DNA of 64,000 nt. It comes from Schizochytrium sp. TIO01 (Eukaryota; Sar; Bigyra; Thraustochytrida; Thraustochytriidae). The DNA lies in NCBI GenBank assembly GCA_004764695.1, contig SMSO01000014.1, forward strand, positions 1,315,148 through 1,379,147. The letters run 5' to 3'. A program made the translations under genes and the position numbers. Every line of letters begins with the position of its first letter. The first letter of the stretch is position 1. Below, in pieces: positions 50,201-63,985 of the stretch. The notes below the pieces were generated by a model that was not told the DNA's origin, made no database searches, and was given only the letters and a program-made list of their open reading frames with translations.

Positions 50201-50254
50201 ATGGGATCAATCAATTCTCTTTGGCAGACACACGTTTTCCACCATGAAGACTGA
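50201..50254 (+). other. Small upstream frame overlapping the start of the SAP-domain gene
   Basis: An ATG at 50201 opens a 17-codon frame that ends at TGA 50252-50254, overlapping the main ATG at 50244 out of frame. If the transcript begins upstream of 50201, ribosomes initiating here would bypass the main start, which could damp translation. The transcription start is unknown, so this is only a sequence possibility. Confidence 0.25.
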
Positions 50255-52922
50255 GCAGGACAACGTGGCTGTAGCCGCGGTGGCTGCCTTCGCGGGAGGC
50301 TCTGAATTCCGTACGGGAGGCAAGTCACGTCGCAAGTGGAGTTTACTCCTGAAAACGAAGGATCTCTATGACAGATGTCAAGAGCTCGGCTTTGAGGTGC
50401 GCAGTGCGCAGCGCGCAGAGTGCGAGGAGCTTCTGGAGGCGCATGCGGAAAAGGTTGAAGATGATTTGAATACGAAGGAATTGTGGCAATTGCGAGGCAT
50501 TTGCTTGGATTATGATCTCGGGATATTGGGCACACGCACAGACCTTAAAGAGCGCCTGATGCTGCAACTTGTTTGTGGAATCTCATCTGGCACTGTTGAA
50601 AGCTTGCTTCAAGATCTTTACGGTCTGGATGTCACTGTGAAGAAAAGGGGCAGACCCAGGCAAAACCCATTTCAAAAACGCGAAGGTGATCCACTGTTAT
50701 CACTGCCTTTGTCGGAACTGAAAAGCATTCTTACTGAGCGGGGAATCCCAATTTATGGACGCAAAAAGGATATGGTCGAAAGGTTTCGATCCGGTAAACG
50801 CAAACGAAGAGGTAGGAAGCCTACCACAAAGGATCTTATGGACTCTATTGCAGTGCGGACGGGAGATGGTCAATACGAATCAAAAAAACAACCTCGCCGA
50901 GAATATCAGCTTCCTACGAGTCATCAAAAAACAATTGACTCAAGCGACGAAGAAGATACATGTGGACACTCACAGATGAATCCTATCCAAACTAACAAAC
51001 GTCAAAAACGTCGCAACCCAAAAACTTATGCAGAAACTACTCGCGATAATCATGACGAGGATGACGAGGATCAAGATGAAGATGAAAATGAAAATGAGGC
51101 CGAAGATGGTAGTGATATTAGTGAGGAAGAGCTCGAGCGTGGGGTCGCAAGGCCCAAGATTCGGCGAACAATGCAACCACGCAAATCTAAGCCTCGCAAT
51201 TCGCTCGCAGATAGTGCATCTCATGAAAGTGATAGTGGAAAGGAAGAGGAGTTTCAGGGCTCTGACTCTGATTACGCATCAGACGATAACGATAGTGGCG
51301 AAGACCGGCAATCTAAGCACCAGAAAGGTTACTCTACATCAAAACACCGCAACGAACACAGCCGACAACCATTGAACCACGGTAAACTTGAAATAGAAGG
51401 AGAAAGTGATATGAGTGATGACTCTTGTTTTGACAACGCAAAGCCTAGACACAGTCACAAACGTGCGAAGAAGAGTGGCAATAGCTCAGCCCCTCGCAAG
51501 CACGAAAATCAAGAGAACTTTCGCCTTGTTAACAACAATGTTCAGCCCATGACAGTAATTCCTTCACGCTTAGTTGTCGATGCAAGAGATTTTATAAAGA
51601 GTGAACGTCGAAATGAGGAGGGAATCAACGACTCGCGTGAGAATAAAGTTGAGCATGTGCGTGAGCAAAATCACCATGCAATTACCGGTGTCCCTAAATC
51701 TTCTGCGAATACATCTGCAGTGCTAGAGCTCACCGAGAATCAAGCGTTTGCCGCATTTACAAGACTTTATCGCCGTCGTAAATGCACAAATATTCCTGTC
51801 GTAAGCATTGACGAGCTGCGGGAACAATTTTCGCGGCGTATTAAAGTTGCGCCTGTACAGAATGAAGAGAGCATGCTTGCGGCTGTCAATGCTCTATTTC
51901 GGCGCAAGTGCGATCCAATTTTAACGAGGCCTCCAGATGCCAGTTGGACTAAAACGGAACTTCGTGACTATTGCACAGAAAAGGGAATTTGCAATCAGAA
52001 TGATAAGACAGAGCTCTTAGAGCGCGCATTGCAAATAGCAAAGTCGCGAGCTCGCGGCCTATACACAAATTTGCAGAGTTATCAGAAACGAGCTGATGCA
52101 TGGCTTGATTATGCCCCGTTGGTACACGGTTATCCACCAGCTGATCTTCGTAGTCGTCACGAGGTCGAGCCAGTCAAACTCGATCGCTACATTGTGAGCA
52201 TGGAAAGCATCCTAGTTGATGGTATTCCTATTATGTCTGCCCCGGATCTGCAAGAGATGCACCGCCGCCAGCTTGGGTGGGCATCAACAAACAAACACGA
52301 AGCACAATCTTCAGCGTGGTATCAAGCACACATACACTTTTTCGGGCTTGAGCATTTTTTGTCCCATGAAAGATCTCCAGAAGATGCGACTAAACCTGAA
52401 CTTGCACGCGCCCTTGAGCAGGCAGTCCTATTGGGACTTTGCCTCGAGCCTTGCGCACAGGTACAACGATATCTGCTACCTTTGAAACAAGCTTTGGTTC
52501 AGCGGTACAAAGCTCGAATTGAAAAATTTGGCGCGCAGATTTCTCATCAAGAACACCCTGCACATGGATATTCTAGAAACGAGGCTCTCTATGAGTGGCG
52601 CAACGATCAACTACAAAGCTTGGGTACGCTTGCCTATGTTGATGAACAAGAAACCTCGAACACAGACTTGTCTGCATCGAAAAACCCCTTTATGTCACTT
52701 TCACAACAAAGGCCTGCGACTGCAGAGGACCTGATTGCCAAAGCGGATGCAAAGGCGGAGGAGGAAGCACTAGCCCGAGATCTTGGAGAGCTCAAGTCAG
52801 AAATAGAAATTGAGCCAGCACTCTTGTTAAATCCCCCGCGTCGTGATTCAATGGATCCTGAGGACCAAGATCTGACCCAAAGACTCTTTGAACTTCATTC
52901 ACACCTCCAAGTACAATGCTAA
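50244..52922 (+). CDS. SAP-domain / AT-hook nuclear protein, 892 aa (hypothetical chromatin-associated)
   Basis: Single uninterrupted frame. An in-frame TGA at 50178 precedes the first ATG, whose context ACC-ATG-A is good. Three segments look like SAP helix-extended-helix motifs: about residues 76-108, 154-184 (LPLSELKSILTERGIPIYG) and 566-600 (WTKTELRDYCTEKGI). A weaker one may lie at 37-70. Basic AT-hook-like cores KKRGRPRQ (133-140) and KRRGRKPT (187-194) flank the 154-184 motif. A strongly acidic Asp/Glu run covers about 266-300, followed by a charged, Ser/His-rich linker to about 490. Residues about 495-790 are more ordered, with conserved-looking Trp/His/Phe clusters that I do not recognise. 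A charged helix lies near 829-857. SAP domains and AT-hooks bind AT-rich or scaffold-attachment DNA in nuclear proteins, so a chromatin, transcription or RNA-processing role is inferred. No catalytic motif is visible. The + strand KDEL-receptor gene follows 732 bp downstream. Confidence 0.8.
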   Translation: MKTEQDNVAVAAVAAFAGGSEFRTGGKSRRKWSLLLKTKDLYDRCQELGFEVRSAQRAECEELLEAHAEKVEDDLNTKELWQLRGICLDYDLGILGTRTDLKERLMLQLVCGISSGTVESLLQDLYGLDVTVKKRGRPRQNPFQKREGDPLLSLPLSELKSILTERGIPIYGRKKDMVERFRSGKRKRRGRKPTTKDLMDSIAVRTGDGQYESKKQPRREYQLPTSHQKTIDSSDEEDTCGHSQMNPIQTNKRQKRRNPKTYAETTRDNHDEDDEDQDEDENENEAEDGSDISEEELERGVARPKIRRTMQPRKSKPRNSLADSASHESDSGKEEEFQGSDSDYASDDNDSGEDRQSKHQKGYSTSKHRNEHSRQPLNHGKLEIEGESDMSDDSCFDNAKPRHSHKRAKKSGNSSAPRKHENQENFRLVNNNVQPMTVIPSRLVVDARDFIKSERRNEEGINDSRENKVEHVREQNHHAITGVPKSSANTSAVLELTENQAFAAFTRLYRRRKCTNIPVVSIDELREQFSRRIKVAPVQNEESMLAAVNALFRRKCDPILTRPPDASWTKTELRDYCTEKGICNQNDKTELLERALQIAKSRARGLYTNLQSYQKRADAWLDYAPLVHGYPPADLRSRHEVEPVKLDRYIVSMESILVDGIPIMSAPDLQEMHRRQLGWASTNKHEAQSSAWYQAHIHFFGLEHFLSHERSPEDATKPELARALEQAVLLGLCLEPCAQVQRYLLPLKQALVQRYKARIEKFGAQISHQEHPAHGYSRNEALYEWRNDQLQSLGTLAYVDEQETSNTDLSASKNPFMSLSQQRPATAEDLIAKADAKAEEEALARDLGELKSEIEIEPALLLNPPRRDSMDPEDQDLTQRLFELHSHLQVQC

Positions 52923-53654: not shown

Positions 53655-54326
53655 ATGAACATCTTCAGATTAGGCGGTGACATGATTCACCTTGCTAGCT
53701 TTGCTATCCTCTTCCTGAAGATGTTAAGCTCACGCTCTGTTGAGGGAGTCTCATTAAAAACTCAGGAGCTCTACCTTCTTGTATTTGTAACCCGCTACCT
53801 AGATCTGTTTATGATTCCCAAGTTTGATTTTCTGCACATCTACAATTCATGCATGAAAGTCATCTACATTGCTGCTTCAGCCACCATCGTGTACTACATT
53901 AGGAAAAAGCAACCGTGGAATGCAACCTACAAGAAGCAGGAGGACTCTTTCATGCACTGGCAGTTTGCCGTTGCTCCTTGTGCTGTGCTTGCGTTGCTCA
54001 TTCACAGTGAGTTTACCGCCATGGAGCTTCTCTGGACCTTTTCAATTTATCTTGAGGCCATCGCTATCATGCCACAGCTCATTCTTATGCAACGCTTCGG
54101 TAATATTGAGAACCTTACTGCAAACTATGTCGCTTGCCTTGGCGCCTACCGAGGATTGTACATCCTTAACTGGATCTACCGTGTTTACACGGAGGATCAC
54201 TACCATTCATCTAAAACTACCTGGATCATCTGGATCTCGGGTCTTGTGCAAACCGCTCTTTATTGCGACTTTTTTTACTACTATGCACTTTCGAAGTGGT
54301 ACAACAAGACTATGTTGCCTAAATAA
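53655..54326 (+). CDS. ERD2: ER lumen protein-retaining receptor (KDEL receptor), 223 aa
   Basis: A seven-helix receptor of the Golgi and intermediate compartment. It binds the C-terminal K/HDEL of escaped ER residents at low pH and returns them by COPI vesicles. The match is end to end with the usual length of about 212-220. The start MNIFRLGGDMIH keeps Arg5 and the pH-sensing His12. Other family landmarks are SRSVEG in the first loop, TRYLDLF (about 46-52), YNSCMKVIYIA, FTAMELLWTFSIYLEAIAI (retaining the Glu of the binding pocket), GAYRGLYILNWIYR and GLVQTALYCDFFYYY. The loop after RYLDLF is a couple of residues longer than in animals. The tail is short and ends in Lys rather than the animal KKxSxxx-type tail. 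ATG context is ACC-ATG-A. It converges with the minus-strand USP gene 439 bp away. The family assignment is firm. Confidence 0.97.
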   Translation: MNIFRLGGDMIHLASFAILFLKMLSSRSVEGVSLKTQELYLLVFVTRYLDLFMIPKFDFLHIYNSCMKVIYIAASATIVYYIRKKQPWNATYKKQEDSFMHWQFAVAPCAVLALLIHSEFTAMELLWTFSIYLEAIAIMPQLILMQRFGNIENLTANYVACLGAYRGLYILNWIYRVYTEDHYHSSKTTWIIWISGLVQTALYCDFFYYYALSKWYNKTMLPK

Positions 54327-54765: not shown

Positions 54766-56967
54766 TTAGCTTGCTACATCTTCTCGTTCGTAAAACATCA
54801 AATAAACGTTCTGAAGCACCGCCTTCGTCATGGCAAAATCCCTGTGTGATAAATCCCGTTTAACATTCAAGTCATCATAACAAGTCCATTTACCAGCATT
54901 CAGATCATAGGTTGCTGCTGTATAATGACCAGAGTCACTTCGCTGGCCCTTATGAAGAACCATACCACGTAAACGATAGGTGTCTCCAGCGAAGACGATT
55001 CTCAGCTGTGGATTAACCTTCAGGTTGTTCTTTGTTTCCTCCCCCCAGACAAAGCGGTGAAGCTGCAAAGCTAAGATAGGTGCTGTGCGTAGAACGTTGG
55101 TGTGTTTCGTAGCTCCAGTTTCCTCGCATGCAGAGCATTTGAAGTCGTTAACATGGACATCACCCAAGTAGTTTTCCAGCAATTCCTCGACCTTCATCGG
55201 GGGTGCCTCTGAATCGATTGTTAAAGTAGATATCGCCTTCCCACGGCTAGTCACTCGGTCAGCCCCACCAGATAAATCCAAAGGAACATTTAGGTACGAA
55301 GCAACAGTTTTGCTCTCATAATCACAGTGATTACATGACACACGCTCTTCGAATTTAGACTCAAAAGAAGAATGAACAACAGCTGGCGCAACGAGCTCAA
55401 CCATGTTTAGCAAATAAGAGACAAATTCATGGGCATCTTGCTGCTCACATGAGGCAAAACGTGATGCATTGTCGCTGTCTAGCTTGCTCACAGCAATCCG
55501 AATGTCGCGAACATCAAATTGTGTGATCGACCGGTCAGGTTCTGATTCACGACGCTTAATTGCTTCCTCGCCGCCCCGAACGTAGTTTCTGAGTGCCCTG
55601 AGCTTTTTCATGCAAATTAAAGCGTCGGGTGGCACCTTTTCTTTGGGATGATCACCACTATCATCGATCTCCATTAGCATGGGCTCCTCGTCAGAATTAT
55701 TGATACTTTTATTCTCGTTGGATTCTTGTGCGCTGCTCGCGAGTCTACTCTCAGCAACATCAAGTGCTTTGGAAATGAAAGCATCGAGGCGAATCAAAAC
55801 TTGAAGCACAGCATTTGCGTAGCATTGGTTTTCGCGGTTCTTCAACCCACCAATGCTACTGCCTTGTTCGAAAGAGCGAGTAGGTTCGCTAGAGCCCGAA
55901 CCAAAAACCGGGCTCTGTTTCAACGGTGATGAAGATGCGATTTTTCCTTTTTGAGAACTTTTTCTGATTGAAAAAAAAACAGAACTACTCGTAATAGAGT
56001 GTCTGCGCTCGCCTACTGTGGCAAGTTTGGATTCACGCTGCGGTGTACTAGCTCCCGAATCTTCCCGTGGCAATTTTGAAGTTGACGAGCGGCTTTCTGA
56101 GGATGCTGAAATTGATGGCGGAGTTTTTGTAAAATTCAAAGTACCTACCTTGGTCTGGTGGGGTTTTGATGGTGTCAGCACTTGAACAGGTGATTTGAAA
56201 GGAGCGTTAAGGCTGGAAGGTTTCGGAGATGCTACAGAGCTAGCCTTTTGTGTTGGTGAGATCTGCTGTGTACGTAAAGGGGAAGGTCTAGTGACACTCT
56301 CAATCCTTAGAGTTGGATAGCGCATTGAATTTGCCGATGAAGCAGCCTTCCGAGGTCTAGCACCGTATTGGCGCAGGGCTTTGCTGCTTGGAAGTGACGG
56401 CTTTGTCCAGTCGACTCTGACATTGTCACTAGCTTTCGCCTTTTTCGTTTTCAGTTTTTCGAATTCTGCCCCCCGTTCATCACGGTCTTCAACTCCCCGC
56501 TTAGAACCAGACAAAGCTCTATTAGGGGACAAGGCTTGTGTAAGAGAAGCACTATGTTTGATTGTAGATTTCCTTCCACCATGTAAAGGAGGTAAGTCCG
56601 CATCCGAGATATGACTGAAGCTGATTTTTCCAATCTTGAATTTTGCAGAGCTTTCCATGAGCCAAGTATATATATTCTCCAGACCCGACGTGCCTTGAGA
56701 TTCAACACGAACTTGGTTCGTTCCCTTACGATTATATTCAATTAACAATATGCTCTTAGACTGACCCAGAGACACCTGCGTCATGAAATCTAGCTGAATC
56801 TTGAGGGTTTTCTTTTCTGTGCCATTTACAACGTAAGTGAACTTTAAGCTATGCGACGGAGTTTGCTTTACCTCAAGGAGATTGCCTTCATTCGTGTCGA
56901 TAACGTTCTTTACGTCATTGCCACGGAACTGCAGCCCAAAATCCTGCACCGCAATCCGCTTCACCAT
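54766..56967 (-). CDS. Ubiquitin-specific protease (C19 family) with PH-like N-terminus, 733 aa
   Basis: A cysteine deubiquitinase that removes ubiquitin from substrates. The catalytic Cys box is GLKNRENQCYANAVLQ, with Cys382 as nucleophile and the oxyanion Asn of GLKN retained. Next come QQDAHEFVSYLLNMVE, a zinc-ribbon pair C545-x2-C548 and C611-x2-C614, LQLHRF, and the His box SDSGHYTA (His681) with YDD at 697-699 supplying the acidic residue. Residues 1-120 alternate hydrophobic strands with a closing helix (LENIYTWLMES), resembling from memory the PH-type N-terminus of USP37. Residues 120-365 are Ser/Pro/Lys-rich and probably disordered. An acidic insert at about 405-450 interrupts the catalytic fold. 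Oddity: the usual GNTCY reads ENQCY. The start has A at -3. An active enzyme is likely because the triad is complete, but the substrate is unknown. Confidence 0.9.
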   Translation of the reverse strand: MVKRIAVQDFGLQFRGNDVKNVIDTNEGNLLEVKQTPSHSLKFTYVVNGTEKKTLKIQLDFMTQVSLGQSKSILLIEYNRKGTNQVRVESQGTSGLENIYTWLMESSAKFKIGKISFSHISDADLPPLHGGRKSTIKHSASLTQALSPNRALSGSKRGVEDRDERGAEFEKLKTKKAKASDNVRVDWTKPSLPSSKALRQYGARPRKAASSANSMRYPTLRIESVTRPSPLRTQQISPTQKASSVASPKPSSLNAPFKSPVQVLTPSKPHQTKVGTLNFTKTPPSISASSESRSSTSKLPREDSGASTPQRESKLATVGERRHSITSSSVFFSIRKSSQKGKIASSSPLKQSPVFGSGSSEPTRSFEQGSSIGGLKNRENQCYANAVLQVLIRLDAFISKALDVAESRLASSAQESNENKSINNSDEEPMLMEIDDSGDHPKEKVPPDALICMKKLRALRNYVRGGEEAIKRRESEPDRSITQFDVRDIRIAVSKLDSDNASRFASCEQQDAHEFVSYLLNMVELVAPAVVHSSFESKFEERVSCNHCDYESKTVASYLNVPLDLSGGADRVTSRGKAISTLTIDSEAPPMKVEELLENYLGDVHVNDFKCSACEETGATKHTNVLRTAPILALQLHRFVWGEETKNNLKVNPQLRIVFAGDTYRLRGMVLHKGQRSDSGHYTAATYDLNAGKWTCYDDLNVKRDLSHRDFAMTKAVLQNVYLMFYEREDVAS

Positions 56968-57862: not shown

Positions 57863-60800
57863 TTATCCACGCATATTCGTAAAGGATGATCCAGAAAAGG
57901 AGGATCCTCCTCCTCCCCCAGAGTTACCACCAAAACCGCCAAAACCTCCGCCACTGCTACCGCCAAAGCCACCACCACCAGCGGTACCACCAAAGCCACT
58001 GCCACCTCCGGTGTTACCACCAAAGCTGCTGGCGTTCCCGCCAAAGCCACCTCCAGTGGGGGCAGAACCAAAGCCAGAGCTACCAAAGCCCCCGGAAGAT
58101 CCACTGCTACTGGTTCCAAATCCTCCTCCGTTGTTAAAGCCGCTGGACCCTCCACCAGCTGAGGTGCCAAAGCCTGAGTTTGTTCCAAAGCCACTAGACC
58201 CACCACTCGATGAGGCACCAAAGCCAGAAGCCCCTCCGCCTGAGCTTGAGCCAAAGCCTCCACTACTGTTACCAAAGCCACCTGACCCACTGGTGGCTGC
58301 AGCTGGAGAGCCAAAACTGGATGAGCTACTACCAGCAAAACCAGCAAAACCACCCCCGTTGGCTCCCGCAGACTGCGCTCCCATACCATTAGAGCTTGGC
58401 GTGCCGAATCCAGAACTGCCAAAGCCACCACTACTGCCACTAGCTCCGAAACCACTGGAATTGCCAAATCCGCCTGGAGTGGCACCAAAAGCGCCGCCGC
58501 TGCCCATAGCTTGTCCACCAGTATTACCTCCTGCAAAGAAACCTGTTGAACCTGGGCCATACTTCTTTTCAAGCTGTGCAAATAGCTCAGTCTCGCGCCC
58601 ACGATAACGTTCCAATGTCTTGTCTACAGAGTTCAACTTTTCTGGGTTTTGCTTTTGGTAAAATTCTACAAGACGTTGCCGCGCATCCATGTTATTTCCA
58701 CCTCCTGGTGTTTGTTGCTGTTGCTGTCCACCAAACATCGAACCACCGACGGGAGTTGAAGTAGATGCGCCAAAACCAGATGAGCCCAGAGGCTGTGACG
58801 AGCCAAATGATGATGCCGAGGGAGTCGAAGTTCCAAATCCAGAACTCGACTGGCCAAATCCAGAACTCGATTGACCAAATCCAGAACTCGATTGACCGAA
58901 CCCTGTGTTTGAAGACGCTTGGTTCCCGAAGCCGGAACTGCCAGTACCTCCAAGTCCCGAAGACATTGAAGTTGAACCAAAGACACTGTTTGACCCACCA
59001 GAAGACTCGCCGGTGCCATCGTTAGGTATAAGTTTAATCTTGGTTCGGTACTTCTTTTCTAAGAGGTCGAACATATGGTTGAAGTTTTGTTTATACTTCT
59101 CCATGTTTTGATCAAGCTTACTTATTAGCTCAGGTTTGTGCTCACGGTAGAACTCAGCCAACGTCTTTCGAATATCAACGTTGGTCAAATCACGTTCGCT
59201 ATTTGCTACTGAGGGCGCTGGAGAACTTGGTGTTGCGGGTGTTGAAGTTCCGAACAATCCTGATGAAGAACTGGAGGCCCCAAAGAGACCAGTACTTGAT
59301 GATGAAGGTGTACTTGGTGTTTGCTGGGTTGTATTACCAAACAGTGGCTTGGGCGCTTCTGGAGAGTTTTGCTGCTTACCATCATTGGAGTCTGTAACTT
59401 CTTTGCTAAGTTGCGAATTGTTGGAAGAACTCAATGCCTGACCAGCTACACCAAATAATGATGAGGAGGCACCTTCTGCCTTTTTAGGCGTGAAAGGCGG
59501 TTTTGGTGCTTCTTCATTCTTGGTCTGAGACGTGCCACCTTGTCCAAGGAAGAGTGACGAACTACTAGACGAACCACTAGTGTTTCCAAAGAGACCGGAG
59601 CTCTTCTTTTCTTCCTTCTCTTGCTCTGCTTCTTCCTGTGAAGGTTCTTGAGATGCAAAAGAGCCGCTCACTTCATTTGACGACTGACTCTTAGCACCAA
59701 ATAAACCTCCAGATCCTGGGCCAAATGTACTGCTCTTCTTGTCGCTAGGTTTGGTTTGTGCGCCTGGCTTAGTGTCCGACCAAGACGCACCAACTGCTTC
59801 CTCCGACACAACTGGCCGCAACTTCGGAGGGTCAGCCATATGGCTAAGTGCTTCCTCTTGCTTTTCCGTTAAACCAGGTCGACGCTGGCTGAACGAGTTT
59901 ATAAAATCAAGAGATCCATCATCTGTTAAGGTTCCATCAGCCTCAACAGACTGACGAGATGTTTTAGCAGCTAGGCTTCGTCGCCAGCGCAACTCCTTGC
60001 GAGCAGCCGACCTTGCTTCTTTCAATGGACGTGCCTGTCTCATTTCTTGCCCAGTGGAATCGCGCATGATAATAGGTTGAGCAGAGATGTGCTCTTTGAT
60101 CATAGCATCAATTGAGTCTAGATCAGCTAATTCTTGTTCATAGGTTTTGGTTAAGCTTGGAGATCCACCATTGTTGCTGAGGGTTGGAACCAAAGCACTT
60201 TGATCCGAGAATTCCCCAATCTTGCCCTGTTCAATTTCGTCAATATCCTCGACATCATCAATCGCAGCCTTAAGCCTTGAATTAATACCATTAAGCCTGG
60301 CGTAAAGTGAACGCATTTCGTCGAAACTGGTTCGGGCGCGCTTATACATACTCATTGCGCGTCTCATGAGCTGTCTCTGACGCTCGACATATGTCTCATT
60401 GCTAGCTGCCAGTGTGACAACTCTTCGTGAGTCACGTTGATCAGGCGGGTTTCTCTGGCTAAGGCTAATCGTGCGCTGCTGATTTTGCAATGTTTCACGT
60501 AGGGATGTCATCTGGTGCTCCATCATCTCGCGAAATCTCTCCAGATCGTGTACCCGTTTATTTGCACTTTGCAAATGCAACAAAAGTTCTGCAAGTTCCT
60601 CATCTGAAGCTTCAATTTGCGGGGCATGTTCAATAGATTCGAAACCTTGATCAAAACTGGGTCCACTGTTATGGCCATCAGGTTGCAAGGATCTCATCCG
60701 AGAATGCATTTGATTCTTTACAGATTCGAAGAGTGACAGATAGTTCAAGTAGTTGCGGCGCGTGGCAGCGAGAAAATCAGCCCCTTCCCTTACGAGTTTC

Positions 60801-63800
60801 TTAACATCGTTCTGGGCAAAACTTAGTGCTTCCTCAATGTTGTCTCTCAATGTTTTCGTTTTATCTTCGAGTTCTTCATCATTCTCCGGCCATGTCATAG
60901 TCATCCTGGCAATATCTTCCTGCATATCTTCGTCTTTGGCCTGTACAAGATTAAGAGTACTGCGCAGGAGCCGTCGGGTCTCCTCCTCTGGATCTGTAGA
61001 TTTATTCAGAGATTCTTTCATCTTTGTCAGATGTCCACGCGGCTCATAAATACCTTCGTCTTTCTCTAAACGAAGCTTCATGAGAGACAACCGAGGTGCG
61101 GAACTTAGGCGCTTTGCCCGGACTTGTGTGTTAAGTTCTGCTTGCAGTTTCTCATTTCTAGCCTCCTGTTCGTTCAGAGACTCTCGCAAACCTGCAATCG
61201 TTTCTCGATAAACGTTTTCAGTGTTTGACTTCATGGTGGTAACATGCATGGTCTCGGCATCGGCATTGGCTTTGGCTTTGGCATCGGCATTAGCCTTGGC
61301 TCTGGCATTAGCATCAGCTTTGACTCTGGCATCAGCATCAGCCTTGGCTCTGGCATCAGCATCAGCCTTGGTTCTGGCATCAGCATCAGCCTTGGCTCTG
61401 GTATCAGCATCAGCCTTGGCTCTGGCATCAGCATCAGCCTTGGTTCTGGCATCAGCATCAGCCTTGGCTCTGGTATCAGCATCAGCCTTGGCTCTGGCAT
61501 CAGCATCAGCCTTGGCTCTGGCATTAGCATCAGCCTTGGCTCTGGCATCAGCATCAGCCTTGGCTCTGGCATCAGCATCAGCCTTGGCTCTGGCATCAGC
61601 ATCAGCCTTGGCTCTGGCATCAGCATCAGCCTTGGCTCTGGCATCAGCATCAGCCTTGGCTCTGGCATCAGCATCAGCCTTGGCTCTGGCATCAGCATCA
61701 GCCTTGGCTTTGACATCATCATTTACATTAGCGTTAGAAATGATGGCATTGGATGATTTTGCAATCAAACTTAGGTCTACTTTTTGATCCTTGTATTTTC
61801 CACTGAGGCGATCAAATACAGCCGAGTATTTACCCTCATACTTGTCTAAAATTCCCTCAACACCACCTAGTTTTGTGGGATCAATGCGTTTGTAAAAATC
61901 TGTTAAGAGGATCCTTGCCTCGTCTCTTGTGAAGACGCGTTGCTCTGGTGGTACAAATGTAACAGTTGGAGGACAGTCCTTGTAATAACCTGTGACACCA
62001 TCACGGCAGGTGTAAATCATCCCTTCTTGAGCGCCAGTGAATGGTACATCACCCTTGGTTTCTGATTTTGACCTGTTCTCGAAGCTGCTAGTGGTAGCGG
62101 TGCTGCCAAAAAGAGAGCCTCCCGTAGAAGATGTCCCACCCCCAGAATTTCCAAATAATGACGATGTGCCATTTCCTTGCGGTTGAGCAGCGGCGGCGGT
62201 TCCAAAAGAGGTAGAAGAGCCCCCAAAGAGACTTTGCGTGGGTTGGCTAGAAAGGGAGTTTGACATCGCTCCGAAACCAAAACTTGATTTTGCCTCGCTA
62301 TTTGAAGAACCTACAGCTGATTTGCTTGCTTCTCCAAACAACGAGCCGTTTGAGACCTTCTCGGTGCTTGAAGAGGATGAAGAGCCTCCGAAGAGACTTT
62401 GCGTGGGTTGGCTAGAAAGGGAGTTTGACATCGCTCCGAAACCAAAACTTGATTTTGCCTCGCTATTTGAAGAACCTACAGCTGATTTGCTTGCTTCTCC
62501 AAACAACGAGCCGTTTGAGACCTTCTCGGTGCTTGAAGAGGATGAAGAGGATGTACTGAATAGAGATCCAGCACCAGTAGATTTGCCTGTGAATAGGTCT
62601 GTTTTTCCTGACTGAGCATCGCCCGCTTTGCTCTGAGCTGTTGCACCGAAGGTTGTAGATGAAGGTGCAGAGGAACTAAAATCAAAAGCAGAACCGCCCA
62701 TACCAGATGTAGGCTTAGAGTTCACTTTGTTGTCGGATTTAGCTGGAGAGGGGACGGATCGTGCTGTGGGCAAGCTAGAGGTTGTGAGACACATTCCTGG
62801 AATGGTTGCTGCTGATGATGTTGTGGAATATTCAGTATCCGCAAAGGCAAAATGTTCAAGGATACCATCAGTAGTGCTGACTACAATTGTGGGAGGCGGG
62901 GCAAAATGAGGCTTCCCTTCAAGCTCACCGTCAGTGCCATAGATGTGGTCTGGGGCAACCTTTGCCTTCACACAGAGAGCCATGGCCATGCCAAGCACAA
63001 ATGGGTTTTCCTGAAAACCAATTTCGGGGTCATCATCCCCGTTGTCGGCTAGGACCCATGGGCGCTCAGCAAGACTCCAGATTGAGCCACCACATATTTC
63101 AGGTGTTTCTACTGGATCTTGACGCATCATGACTTTATTACGTTCAATGGCGAAATCACCACCGTCAGCTATAGTGAAGATGGCCATATTTCGACTCCAT
63201 GTTGATGTCAGTACCATACCGTTTAAGTGAGGGATTCTTTGCATGAAAAAGCGATGTTCCCAGGACTTATCACGAATGGAATAATCAAGCGGATCAGATA
63301 AGAACTGCGAAGCAATCACCTGGGCTGACTGAAGATCCAGCTGGACAACCGCAAGAGCCGGCAAAGGAGGTGGGTCATCGTCGTCTTCATCAGAGCCTAT
63401 CGCAACAGCGCTGCGGAAACCCACAGCCAAAACTGATTCGGACATCCATGCAAGAGCGTTTGCATTGACATTACCTTCAAGCTCTTCTGATTCGATTTGA
63501 AATGAACCACGCTGCTCAAGGTTATTAGTTTGAAAGAGGTGAACAGAACCATCATCCATACCCACCGCAATGATTGATTTGGAATCGCCTTCGAAGCCCG
63601 AAGCGCAGGCCAGACCCCTTAAGCTCTCGTCGGAGAACTTTGAACTGGATATATCTTCGCCGTCTGCGGCATTGAATAATTGCAGCGAATCTTCGGACAC
63701 CACCGCGACACGTTCATCCTCGAGGAAGGCAACGTCTTGGACAGACAGCTGTTTTCGCCAGAGGGGCGAGCGCTTTGCATTTCGTGTTAGACCTCCAAGG

Positions 63801-63985
63801 TCGAACATAAAAAAGGTATTGTCTAACGACCATGCAGCTACAAGGGTCTCTGACCACGGACAAAGTTTCAAGCCCAAGAGAGGCTTTTTAGCTTCTAAGC
63901 ACGCCCAGATAGGAGGCTCTGCGATAGCATCGCGTTCCTGTGCCAAGTTAACGCCTTCTTTTGCCATGAAGGATTCCATCTCCAT
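57863..63985 (-). CDS. NUP214: FG-repeat nucleoporin of the NUP214/Nup159 type, 2040 aa (N-terminus may extend past the window)
   Basis: Residues 1 to about 400 read as a beta-propeller (PLLGLKLCPWSETLVAAW, AVGMDDGSVHLF), the fold that in NUP214/Nup159 docks the mRNA-export helicase DDX19/Dbp5. About 427-655 is FG-rich (SLFG, FGFG) and contains a 55-residue tandem duplication. Then come a helical module (about 685-737), an octapeptide array (about 757-910) and a long charged coiled-coil (about 920-1345), which in this family anchors to NUP88/NUP62. A second FG region (GLFG, SLFG, GFG) runs to the C-terminus with two more copies of the module (about 1602-1651 and 1765-1812), ending in a Gly/Ser-rich GFGG tail. 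Propeller, coiled coil, then FG is the NUP214 order. Its length is close to the animal protein's roughly 2090. Role: cytoplasmic-face pore filament and mRNA export (inferred). The frame stays open from 63985 to the window edge (EEDYY before the Met), so the true start may be further right. Confidence 0.8.
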   Translation of the reverse strand: MEMESFMAKEGVNLAQERDAIAEPPIWACLEAKKPLLGLKLCPWSETLVAAWSLDNTFFMFDLGGLTRNAKRSPLWRKQLSVQDVAFLEDERVAVVSEDSLQLFNAADGEDISSSKFSDESLRGLACASGFEGDSKSIIAVGMDDGSVHLFQTNNLEQRGSFQIESEELEGNVNANALAWMSESVLAVGFRSAVAIGSDEDDDDPPPLPALAVVQLDLQSAQVIASQFLSDPLDYSIRDKSWEHRFFMQRIPHLNGMVLTSTWSRNMAIFTIADGGDFAIERNKVMMRQDPVETPEICGGSIWSLAERPWVLADNGDDDPEIGFQENPFVLGMAMALCVKAKVAPDHIYGTDGELEGKPHFAPPPTIVVSTTDGILEHFAFADTEYSTTSSAATIPGMCLTTSSLPTARSVPSPAKSDNKVNSKPTSGMGGSAFDFSSSAPSSTTFGATAQSKAGDAQSGKTDLFTGKSTGAGSLFSTSSSSSSSTEKVSNGSLFGEASKSAVGSSNSEAKSSFGFGAMSNSLSSQPTQSLFGGSSSSSSTEKVSNGSLFGEASKSAVGSSNSEAKSSFGFGAMSNSLSSQPTQSLFGGSSTSFGTAAAAQPQGNGTSSLFGNSGGGTSSTGGSLFGSTATTSSFENRSKSETKGDVPFTGAQEGMIYTCRDGVTGYYKDCPPTVTFVPPEQRVFTRDEARILLTDFYKRIDPTKLGGVEGILDKYEGKYSAVFDRLSGKYKDQKVDLSLIAKSSNAIISNANVNDDVKAKADADARAKADADARAKADADARAKADADARAKADADARAKADADARAKADADARAKADANARAKADADARAKADADTRAKADADARTKADADARAKADADTRAKADADARTKADADARAKADADARVKADANARAKANADAKAKANADAETMHVTTMKSNTENVYRETIAGLRESLNEQEARNEKLQAELNTQVRAKRLSSAPRLSLMKLRLEKDEGIYEPRGHLTKMKESLNKSTDPEEETRRLLRSTLNLVQAKDEDMQEDIARMTMTWPENDEELEDKTKTLRDNIEEALSFAQNDVKKLVREGADFLAATRRNYLNYLSLFESVKNQMHSRMRSLQPDGHNSGPSFDQGFESIEHAPQIEASDEELAELLLHLQSANKRVHDLERFREMMEHQMTSLRETLQNQQRTISLSQRNPPDQRDSRRVVTLAASNETYVERQRQLMRRAMSMYKRARTSFDEMRSLYARLNGINSRLKAAIDDVEDIDEIEQGKIGEFSDQSALVPTLSNNGGSPSLTKTYEQELADLDSIDAMIKEHISAQPIIMRDSTGQEMRQARPLKEARSAARKELRWRRSLAAKTSRQSVEADGTLTDDGSLDFINSFSQRRPGLTEKQEEALSHMADPPKLRPVVSEEAVGASWSDTKPGAQTKPSDKKSSTFGPGSGGLFGAKSQSSNEVSGSFASQEPSQEEAEQEKEEKKSSGLFGNTSGSSSSSSLFLGQGGTSQTKNEEAPKPPFTPKKAEGASSSLFGVAGQALSSSNNSQLSKEVTDSNDGKQQNSPEAPKPLFGNTTQQTPSTPSSSSTGLFGASSSSSGLFGTSTPATPSSPAPSVANSERDLTNVDIRKTLAEFYREHKPELISKLDQNMEKYKQNFNHMFDLLEKKYRTKIKLIPNDGTGESSGGSNSVFGSTSMSSGLGGTGSSGFGNQASSNTGFGQSSSGFGQSSSGFGQSSSGFGTSTPSASSFGSSQPLGSSGFGASTSTPVGGSMFGGQQQQQTPGGGNNMDARQRLVEFYQKQNPEKLNSVDKTLERYRGRETELFAQLEKKYGPGSTGFFAGGNTGGQAMGSGGAFGATPGGFGNSSGFGASGSSGGFGSSGFGTPSSNGMGAQSAGANGGGFAGFAGSSSSSFGSPAAATSGSGGFGNSSGGFGSSSGGGASGFGASSSGGSSGFGTNSGFGTSAGGGSSGFNNGGGFGTSSSGSSGGFGSSGFGSAPTGGGFGGNASSFGGNTGGGSGFGGTAGGGGFGGSSGGGFGGFGGNSGGGGGSSFSGSSFTNMRG
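58550..58693 (-). other. Nucleoporin helical module, copy C
   Basis: Encodes residues about 1765-1812, beginning NMDARQRLVEFYQKQNPEK and ending LEKKYGPG. It is gapless against copies A and B over the core, and closest to B. It precedes the terminal glycine-rich FG tail. Confidence 0.8.
59033..59182 (-). other. Nucleoporin helical module, copy B
   Basis: Encodes residues about 1602-1651, beginning NVDIRKTLAEFYREHKPE. It has the same 35-residue core spacing (FY, P7, Y20, F28, L31, KY34-35) as copies A and C. It is embedded between FG stretches in the C-terminal third. Confidence 0.8.
61254..61714 (-). repeat. 24-bp coding minisatellite (octapeptide AKADADAR, about 19 copies)
   Basis: In-frame tandem array inside the nucleoporin. 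Each 24-bp unit encodes Ala-Lys-Ala-Asp-Ala-Asp-Ala-Arg with a few Thr, Val or Asn variants, and the copies toward the protein's C-terminal side are the most diverged. The composition (alternating Ala with regularly spaced Lys, Asp and Arg) predicts an extended, highly soluble helix. The antisense strand is also open through the array because of its simple composition. Confidence 0.95.
61775..61933 (-). other. Nucleoporin helical module, copy A
   Basis: Encodes residues about 685-737. Its core runs from Phe697-Tyr698 to a final Lys-Tyr 35 residues on, with Pro at core position 7, Tyr at 20, Phe at 28 and Leu at 31. The same spacing recurs without gaps in copies B and C. It sits just before the octapeptide array and after a small Cys-containing segment (GMIYTCRDGVTGYYKDCPP). 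Confidence 0.75.
62226..62549 (-). repeat. Recent 165-bp tandem duplication in the nucleoporin FG region
   Basis: Bases 62226-62384 recur at 62391-62549 (offset 165 bp) and appear identical from 62236 on, with mismatches only at the junction. It encodes a repeated 55-residue block containing SLFG and FGFG motifs (about residues 479-587). Identity at the DNA level implies a recent event, or an assembly artefact. Confidence 0.9.

Follow-up and report, generated by a model that had tools for sequence, protein, structure and literature searches.

Small domains such as WW, SH3, UBA, and SAM make up a class of promiscuous modules, and the NUP214/Nup159 nucleoporins are built in the order propeller, coiled coil, and FG region. 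Excerpts of a published account (PMC13242641) describe small folded domains in FG nucleoporins, namely the Ran-binding and zinc-finger domains of NUP358 (RanBP2) and the zinc fingers of NUP153, as well as a trimeric coiled coil of NUP214 with NUP88 and NUP62. We analyzed a stretch of 64,000 nucleotides (the window) from contig SMSO01000014.1 of Schizochytrium sp. TIO01, positions 1,315,148 to 1,379,147, in which an FG nucleoporin-like gene on the minus strand encodes three copies of a short module (Table 1). Our results showed that related modules occur in many other reading frames of this genome.

A preliminary description of this DNA had reported three gapless 35-residue cores in the protein, at about the residues given for the copies in Table 1, and this was confirmed by alignment, by shuffling, and by a hidden Markov model (HMM) built without window sequences. 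The F-Y…K-Y cores of all three copies align without a gap and have in common, as had been claimed, the Phe-Tyr start, Pro7, Tyr20, Phe28, Leu31, and Lys34-Tyr35; an Arg and a Leu ahead of the core are also invariant. Over 45 residues, the three pairs of copies have 12, 16, and 17 identities. The BLOSUM62 pair scores were 64, 82, and 95; 20,000 shuffles reached at most 16, 22, and 29, and the same comparison elsewhere in the nucleoporin gave at most 21, 21, and 15. Copy 1 is the most divergent, copy 2 has no Gly-(Arg/Lys)-Glu loop, and copy 3 fits the genome-wide consensus best.

The composition of the modules differs from that of their surroundings. Charged residues account for 38–40% of the three modules versus 0–16% of the four FG blocks, and Ile, Leu, Val, Phe, Tyr, Trp, and Met for 27–34% versus 13–16%, which suggests that the modules are folded islands. 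The preliminary description had placed a folded element among FG segments; the element is probably folded, as proposed, but copy 1 does not have FG on both sides, since it is flanked by the first FG block on one side and by the KADADAR repeat and the coiled-coil part on the other.

The eukaryotic sequences searched were those of this 64 Mb genome and of PDB chains. The genome search scores the best candidates alone, so its place counts are lower bounds. With copy 3 as query, at least 24 places were found, at least 15 of them at E < 1e-3 (copy 3 included); copies 2 and 1 found at least 11 and 10 places, each including itself. A hand-made consensus retrieved at least 35 places (25 at E < 1e-3), and its reversed sequence two, with a best E of 0.12. 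The second-variant query, whose middle is longer, gave at least 19 places, 16 at E < 1e-3 and one in common with the first consensus. Together, the two consensus queries marked at least 40 distinct places at E < 1e-3, values that are flattering because the queries were made from such copies. Four low-scoring places of the first consensus (C35, C1, C13:499024, and C30:9244574) and one of the second variant (C31:6324217) were left out of the reading of copies.

The independent HMM was built from 20 copies of 17 other loci, none from the window, and was run against 409 stop-to-stop frames of at least 100 residues (91,357 residues) from the window and loci L033–L057. It found all three nucleoporin copies, and no other window frame was among the listed matches. 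At a domain E < 1e-3 there were 35 copies in 26 frames, that is, the 20 training copies and 15 others including the three of the window; the best match to reversed sequences had 3.1 bits. Weaker copies of the second variant, among them most of those in L057, fall under this threshold and are outside the 35. The search for homologues that the preliminary description had proposed was thus successful within the same genome, and by profile similarity the three nucleoporin copies are assigned to a genome-wide family. The copies are 24–49% identical to copy 3. In a tree of the 35 copies, one of the 32 inner branches was starred; copies 1 and 3 pair at 88/64, which is not firm, copy 2 is placed elsewhere, and the tree gives no decision on duplication within the nucleoporin gene.

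None of the copies passed a curated cut-off in Pfam, where the module is unnamed. Two families matched copy 2 below threshold and none matched copies 1 and 3, and in a set of 23 copies nine families had one member apiece, the best at E 0.01. NCBIfam gave no convincing match (five families with one member each), and PDB sequences gave no significant match over the module. Caprin-1 (4wbe), found with a three-copy profile at E 0.015 over most of the module, is a weak lead that the 23- and 30-copy profiles did not recover at E ≤ 1. A cytochrome c555 trimer (E 2.7e-5) was rejected as a chance match, the sum of three 7.7-bit matches to identical repeats. Single-protein scans, which detect close relatives only, revealed no relative in viral contigs (in one scan, one of six patterns lay in the module) or in contigs of prokaryotic genomes, and a phage megablast without a match was uninformative. 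The accessible parts of the literature, covering the motif itself, NUP214 together with thraustochytrids or labyrinthulomycetes, and surveys of domains, yielded no description of the module, nor was there any mention in the available text of PMC13242641, PMC8421043, PMC2951903, PMC3942036, and PMC5583752. The family may already be known outside Pfam, NCBIfam, and PDB sequences, and similar segments may exist in other protists, as the preliminary description had suggested.

The module occurs in 25 frames besides the nucleoporin, and a Pfam family (E 0.001, for some frames 0.01) was assigned to 14 of them (Table 1). The Pfam scan gave no family for the remaining 11, which are two frames of L035, possibly one gene because they overlap, and one each of L041, L042, L045, L047, L049, L052, L054, L055, and L057. 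There are three copies per frame in L052 and L043 and two in L040, L041, and L055. In L057 (101–1948, minus strand), about two thirds of the 658-residue frame are tandem copies of the second variant (seven at E < 1e-4 and a marginal eighth), an argument that the module folds autonomously.

The position of the module within its hosts varies widely. It lies between MyTH4 and FERM_M in two of the myosins (L033 and L036) and, as judged by eye, between RCC1-like stretches in L048. In the DENR-like protein, all three copies precede DENR_N and SUI1, and the first of them begins upstream of the first in-frame Met. In the Rab GDI, the module starts at residue 229, ahead of the best GDI stretch, which begins at residue 383 and at profile position 158 of 436; the module would lie inside the GDI domain. 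By eye, the same protein has a PDZ-like stretch ahead of its second GDI stretch. Hydrophobic 19-mers scoring 2.36–2.42, of the kind seen in luminal or membrane-anchored proteins, lie among the first 100 residues of L037, L040, and L053; L041, L044, and L046 also pass 1.6 in this test (1.68–1.9) and were not taken as luminal or membrane-anchored. L035 and L055 share a Cys-rich stretch seen by eye, C..F.LD.....F..C.CGF...H.

The anatomy of the module was taken from the alignment of the 35 copies. The conserved residues are the final Tyr (34/35), the Leu pair of the last segment (28/35 and 30/35), the starting Phe and Tyr (29/35 and 27/35), the turn Pro (29/35) with a Lys after it (26/35), an Arg (26/34), an Asp and the Lys before the last Tyr (23/35 each), and a Gly (21/35). 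Pro is also found in a few other columns, for example in 3/35 copies at the Asp column. Thirteen columns are 74–100% hydrophobic, insertions are confined to two loops, and one L043 copy is short at its N terminus. The best helical-moment angles in the three segments are 90, 110, and 85 degrees. We infer from this pattern a unit of about 45 residues with three amphipathic helices, most likely a three-helix bundle. Helix 1 would carry R..L..FY and be followed by an Asn/Asp-Pro turn, helix 2 would carry KL..VD..L..Y, and a Gly loop would lead to helix 3 with L...L..KY.

The family itself, its copy number, the varied positions in hosts, and the tandem array in one protein are direct observations. 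Because the module occurs singly and in tandem, and sits between as well as inside domains of varied proteins, an autonomous fold with a binding job is suggested; its presence in some 25 other frames of many kinds gives it the look of a general building block rather than of a nuclear-pore part. We give a probability of roughly 50% to the reading that the module is an autonomous, promiscuous protein-interaction unit that docks proteins, each copy with its own partner. Domain shuffling would have distributed it among many proteins of Schizochytrium sp. TIO01, and its job would most likely be protein–protein docking or scaffolding, with a partner selected by the divergent surface of each copy; we infer both the spread by shuffling and the function. 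For the nucleoporin, this reading implies folded islands for docking next to the FG mesh and inside it, where the three copies would retain a partner, either soluble or belonging to the pore, in the pore's vicinity.

Several points weigh against this reading. Docking is the default interpretation of such modules, and the partner is presumed. The helical-moment test is weak, with the observed values reached by 1,100, 776, and 484 of 5,000 shuffles, and the moment of segment 1 is equal at 170 and 100 degrees. The PDB sequence searches provided no structure match for the module, the reversed control covers the first consensus query and not that of the second variant, and the divergent copies 1 and 2 may have degenerated.

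If the module had no ligand, it could be a passive folded spacer or stability element that is tolerated in loops and at termini. The strong divergence of the copies, their weakly supported tree, and the widely varying host positions are in keeping with such a role; the conserved polar positions (the Arg, the Lys after the Pro, the Asp, and the Lys before the last Tyr) point to a role beyond packing of the core, although a structural one is conceivable, and we regard a passive element as rather unlikely. Another proposal is homotypic association, in which scaffolds would form by binding between copies, whether these sit in different proteins or in identical ones. The array in L057 and the frames with two or three copies would suit it, but the low identity to copy 3 and the presence of copies in proteins of different compartments make it doubtful. 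It is just as doubtful that the module is an undescribed docking domain with one shared class of ligand, used in this protist lineage as a common connector of proteins of the pore, motors, trafficking, translation, and the secretory pathway; if it were, the three copies would link the nuclear pore to the adaptor network that also serves the myosins and Rab regulators.

The preliminary description had offered docking of a transport factor or another pore subunit. Such a pore-specific module, for a transport factor, a helicase, or a pore subunit, would account for three copies in one FG protein and for two of them inside its C-terminal FG region. This suggestion is not supported by the distribution over the other 25 frames, which include motor, trafficking, translation, and Golgi/ER-type proteins. 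In three of them (L037, L040, and L053), a strong N-terminal hydrophobic segment is combined with domains of secretory-pathway type, and no nuclear transport factor is expected there. Because the hosts seem to be cytosolic, in the pore, and probably luminal, a nuclear transport factor is unlikely as the common ligand, and we consider pore specificity very improbable. UBA and CUE ubiquitin-binding folds have three helices, and the length of about 45 residues, the three-helix layout, and the Gly loop before helix 3 would fit a divergent member, yet at E 0.1 the Pfam models of CUE and UBA matched none of 23 copies, the CUE model, the one of the two that was run on the genome, listed a single place at E ≤ 0.01, which is not a module copy, and a profile comparison with that single CUE sequence gave a probability of 0.3%, so this kinship is hardly credible.

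From its N terminus, the nucleoporin consists of a propeller-like part, an FG block, module 1, the KADADAR repeat, the coiled-coil-like part, and an FG region with modules 2 and 3. All 48 FG dipeptides lie within residues 396–650, 1421–1600, 1652–1763, and 1813–2040, the last three blocks having 7, 9, and 20. FG thus follows the propeller-like part and surrounds the coiled coil (assigned by eye), the arrangement by which NUP214/Nup159 is recognized. PF16755, the N-terminal β-propeller of NUP159/214, scored 14.9 bits against the N terminus alone (cut-off 29.6) and was outscored there by the CDC20/Fizzy and ANAPC4 WD40 models (18.7 for CDC20 WD40). The frame is open upstream beyond the window, with a further Met 86 residues earlier, so translation need not begin at the first ATG of the window; with these 86 residues PF16755 scored 14.2 bits. 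In the genome, six PF16755 matches were listed, none in the nucleoporin gene, the best being E 1.8e-5 on C30; C6:1575659–1576207 passes the cut-off together with its neighbours and has stop codons inside. Because the match is below the cut-off and a better-scoring place exists elsewhere in the genome, NUP214-like is a reading from architecture: the identity is plausible and weak by sequence.

Two tandem repeats lie in this gene. A 24-base unit at 61256–61722 (19.5 copies, 94% matches) codes for the KADADAR segment, alanine-rich and charged, shortly after module 1, and a 165-base duplication at 62206–62549 (97% matches) falls within the first FG block (residues about 479–594). Sub-cut-off Pfam matches of Fibrinogen_BP to the KADADAR repeat (E 1.7e-7) and of Bacillus_HBL to the coiled-coil part (E 4.1e-4) were taken as low-complexity or coiled-coil similarity.

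No ATG-started frame of at least 250 amino acids starts or ends before 50244, and positions 1–50000 have no repeats of at least 150 bases; this part is either a gene desert or a region of intron-rich genes, beside a region of long-frame genes from 50244 on. An Rfam scan of the whole window gave no match that reached the gathering score, and the three neighbouring proteins had no module match in the window-free HMM search.

Table 1. Features of the window and Pfam assignments of other proteins with the module (positions refer to the sequence in the second column)
Feature	Sequence	Positions	Strand	Details
FG nucleoporin-like gene	window	57863..63985	minus	2040 residues; propeller-like part, FG, coiled coil, FG
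Propeller-like part	window	62801..63985	minus	residues 1–395; PF16755 E 0.017 over residues 47–271, below cut-off
Module copy 1	window	61775..61933; core 61793–61897	minus	residues 685–737, core 697–731; HMM 27.8 bits, domain E 4e-8
Coiled-coil-like central part	window	59726..61210	minus	residues 926–1420; by composition, assigned by eye
C-terminal FG region with copies 2 and 3	window	57866..59722	minus	residues 1422–2040; by FG counts
Module copy 2	window	59033..59182; core 59048–59152	minus	residues 1602–1651, core 1612–1646; HMM 31.9 bits, domain E 2.1e-9
Module copy 3	window	58550..58693; core 58559–58663	minus	residues 1765–1812, core 1775–1809; HMM 69.4 bits, domain E 4e-21
SAP-domain protein	window	50244–52922		neighbour
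ER lumen retention receptor	window	53655–54326		neighbour
Ubiquitin hydrolase	window	54766–56967		neighbour
Myosin head and MyTH4	L033, L034, L036
Myosin head	L044
EHD ATPase	L038
RabGAP-TBC with ankyrins	L039
Rab GDI	L046	3781–5784	minus
Sulfotransferase	L037
TTL with PAN	L040
DENR/SUI1	L043	4129–5262	minus	DENR-like translation factor
RCC1	L048
LSm and WW	L051
Thioredoxin with pyridine-nucleotide oxidoreductase	L053			thioredoxin-reductase fusion
RhoGEF	L056

Three copies in one protein have thus led to a domain family that occupies at least 40 places of a single genome and is unnamed in the Pfam version used, and its profile and well-known hosts (Rab GDI, DENR, EHD, myosin) are now offered for a ligand search. 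For the nuclear pore, the modules would be another way of placing folded docking sites in or beside the FG mesh. Like NUP358 and NUP153 in the excerpts of PMC13242641, the window protein has small folded domains within an FG nucleoporin; unlike the NUP358 domains, which recruit Ran in the same account, the module has no Pfam match and is present in many other proteins. The order propeller-like part, coiled coil, and FG is that of NUP214/Nup159, although the propeller match is below the cut-off and the available text on these proteins (PMC13242641) mentions no such module. In myosin XXII, an RA domain lies between MyTH4 and FERM (PMC3942036, in part); compared with MyTH4-FERM tails, three myosins here have MyTH4 and then the module, of which the accessible parts of the accounts of such myosins (PMC3942036; PMC5583752) make no mention. 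Unlike WW, SH3, UBA, and SAM, the module has no Pfam match at the curated cut-off; like them, it is short, occurs singly or in tandem, and is found in hosts of many kinds.

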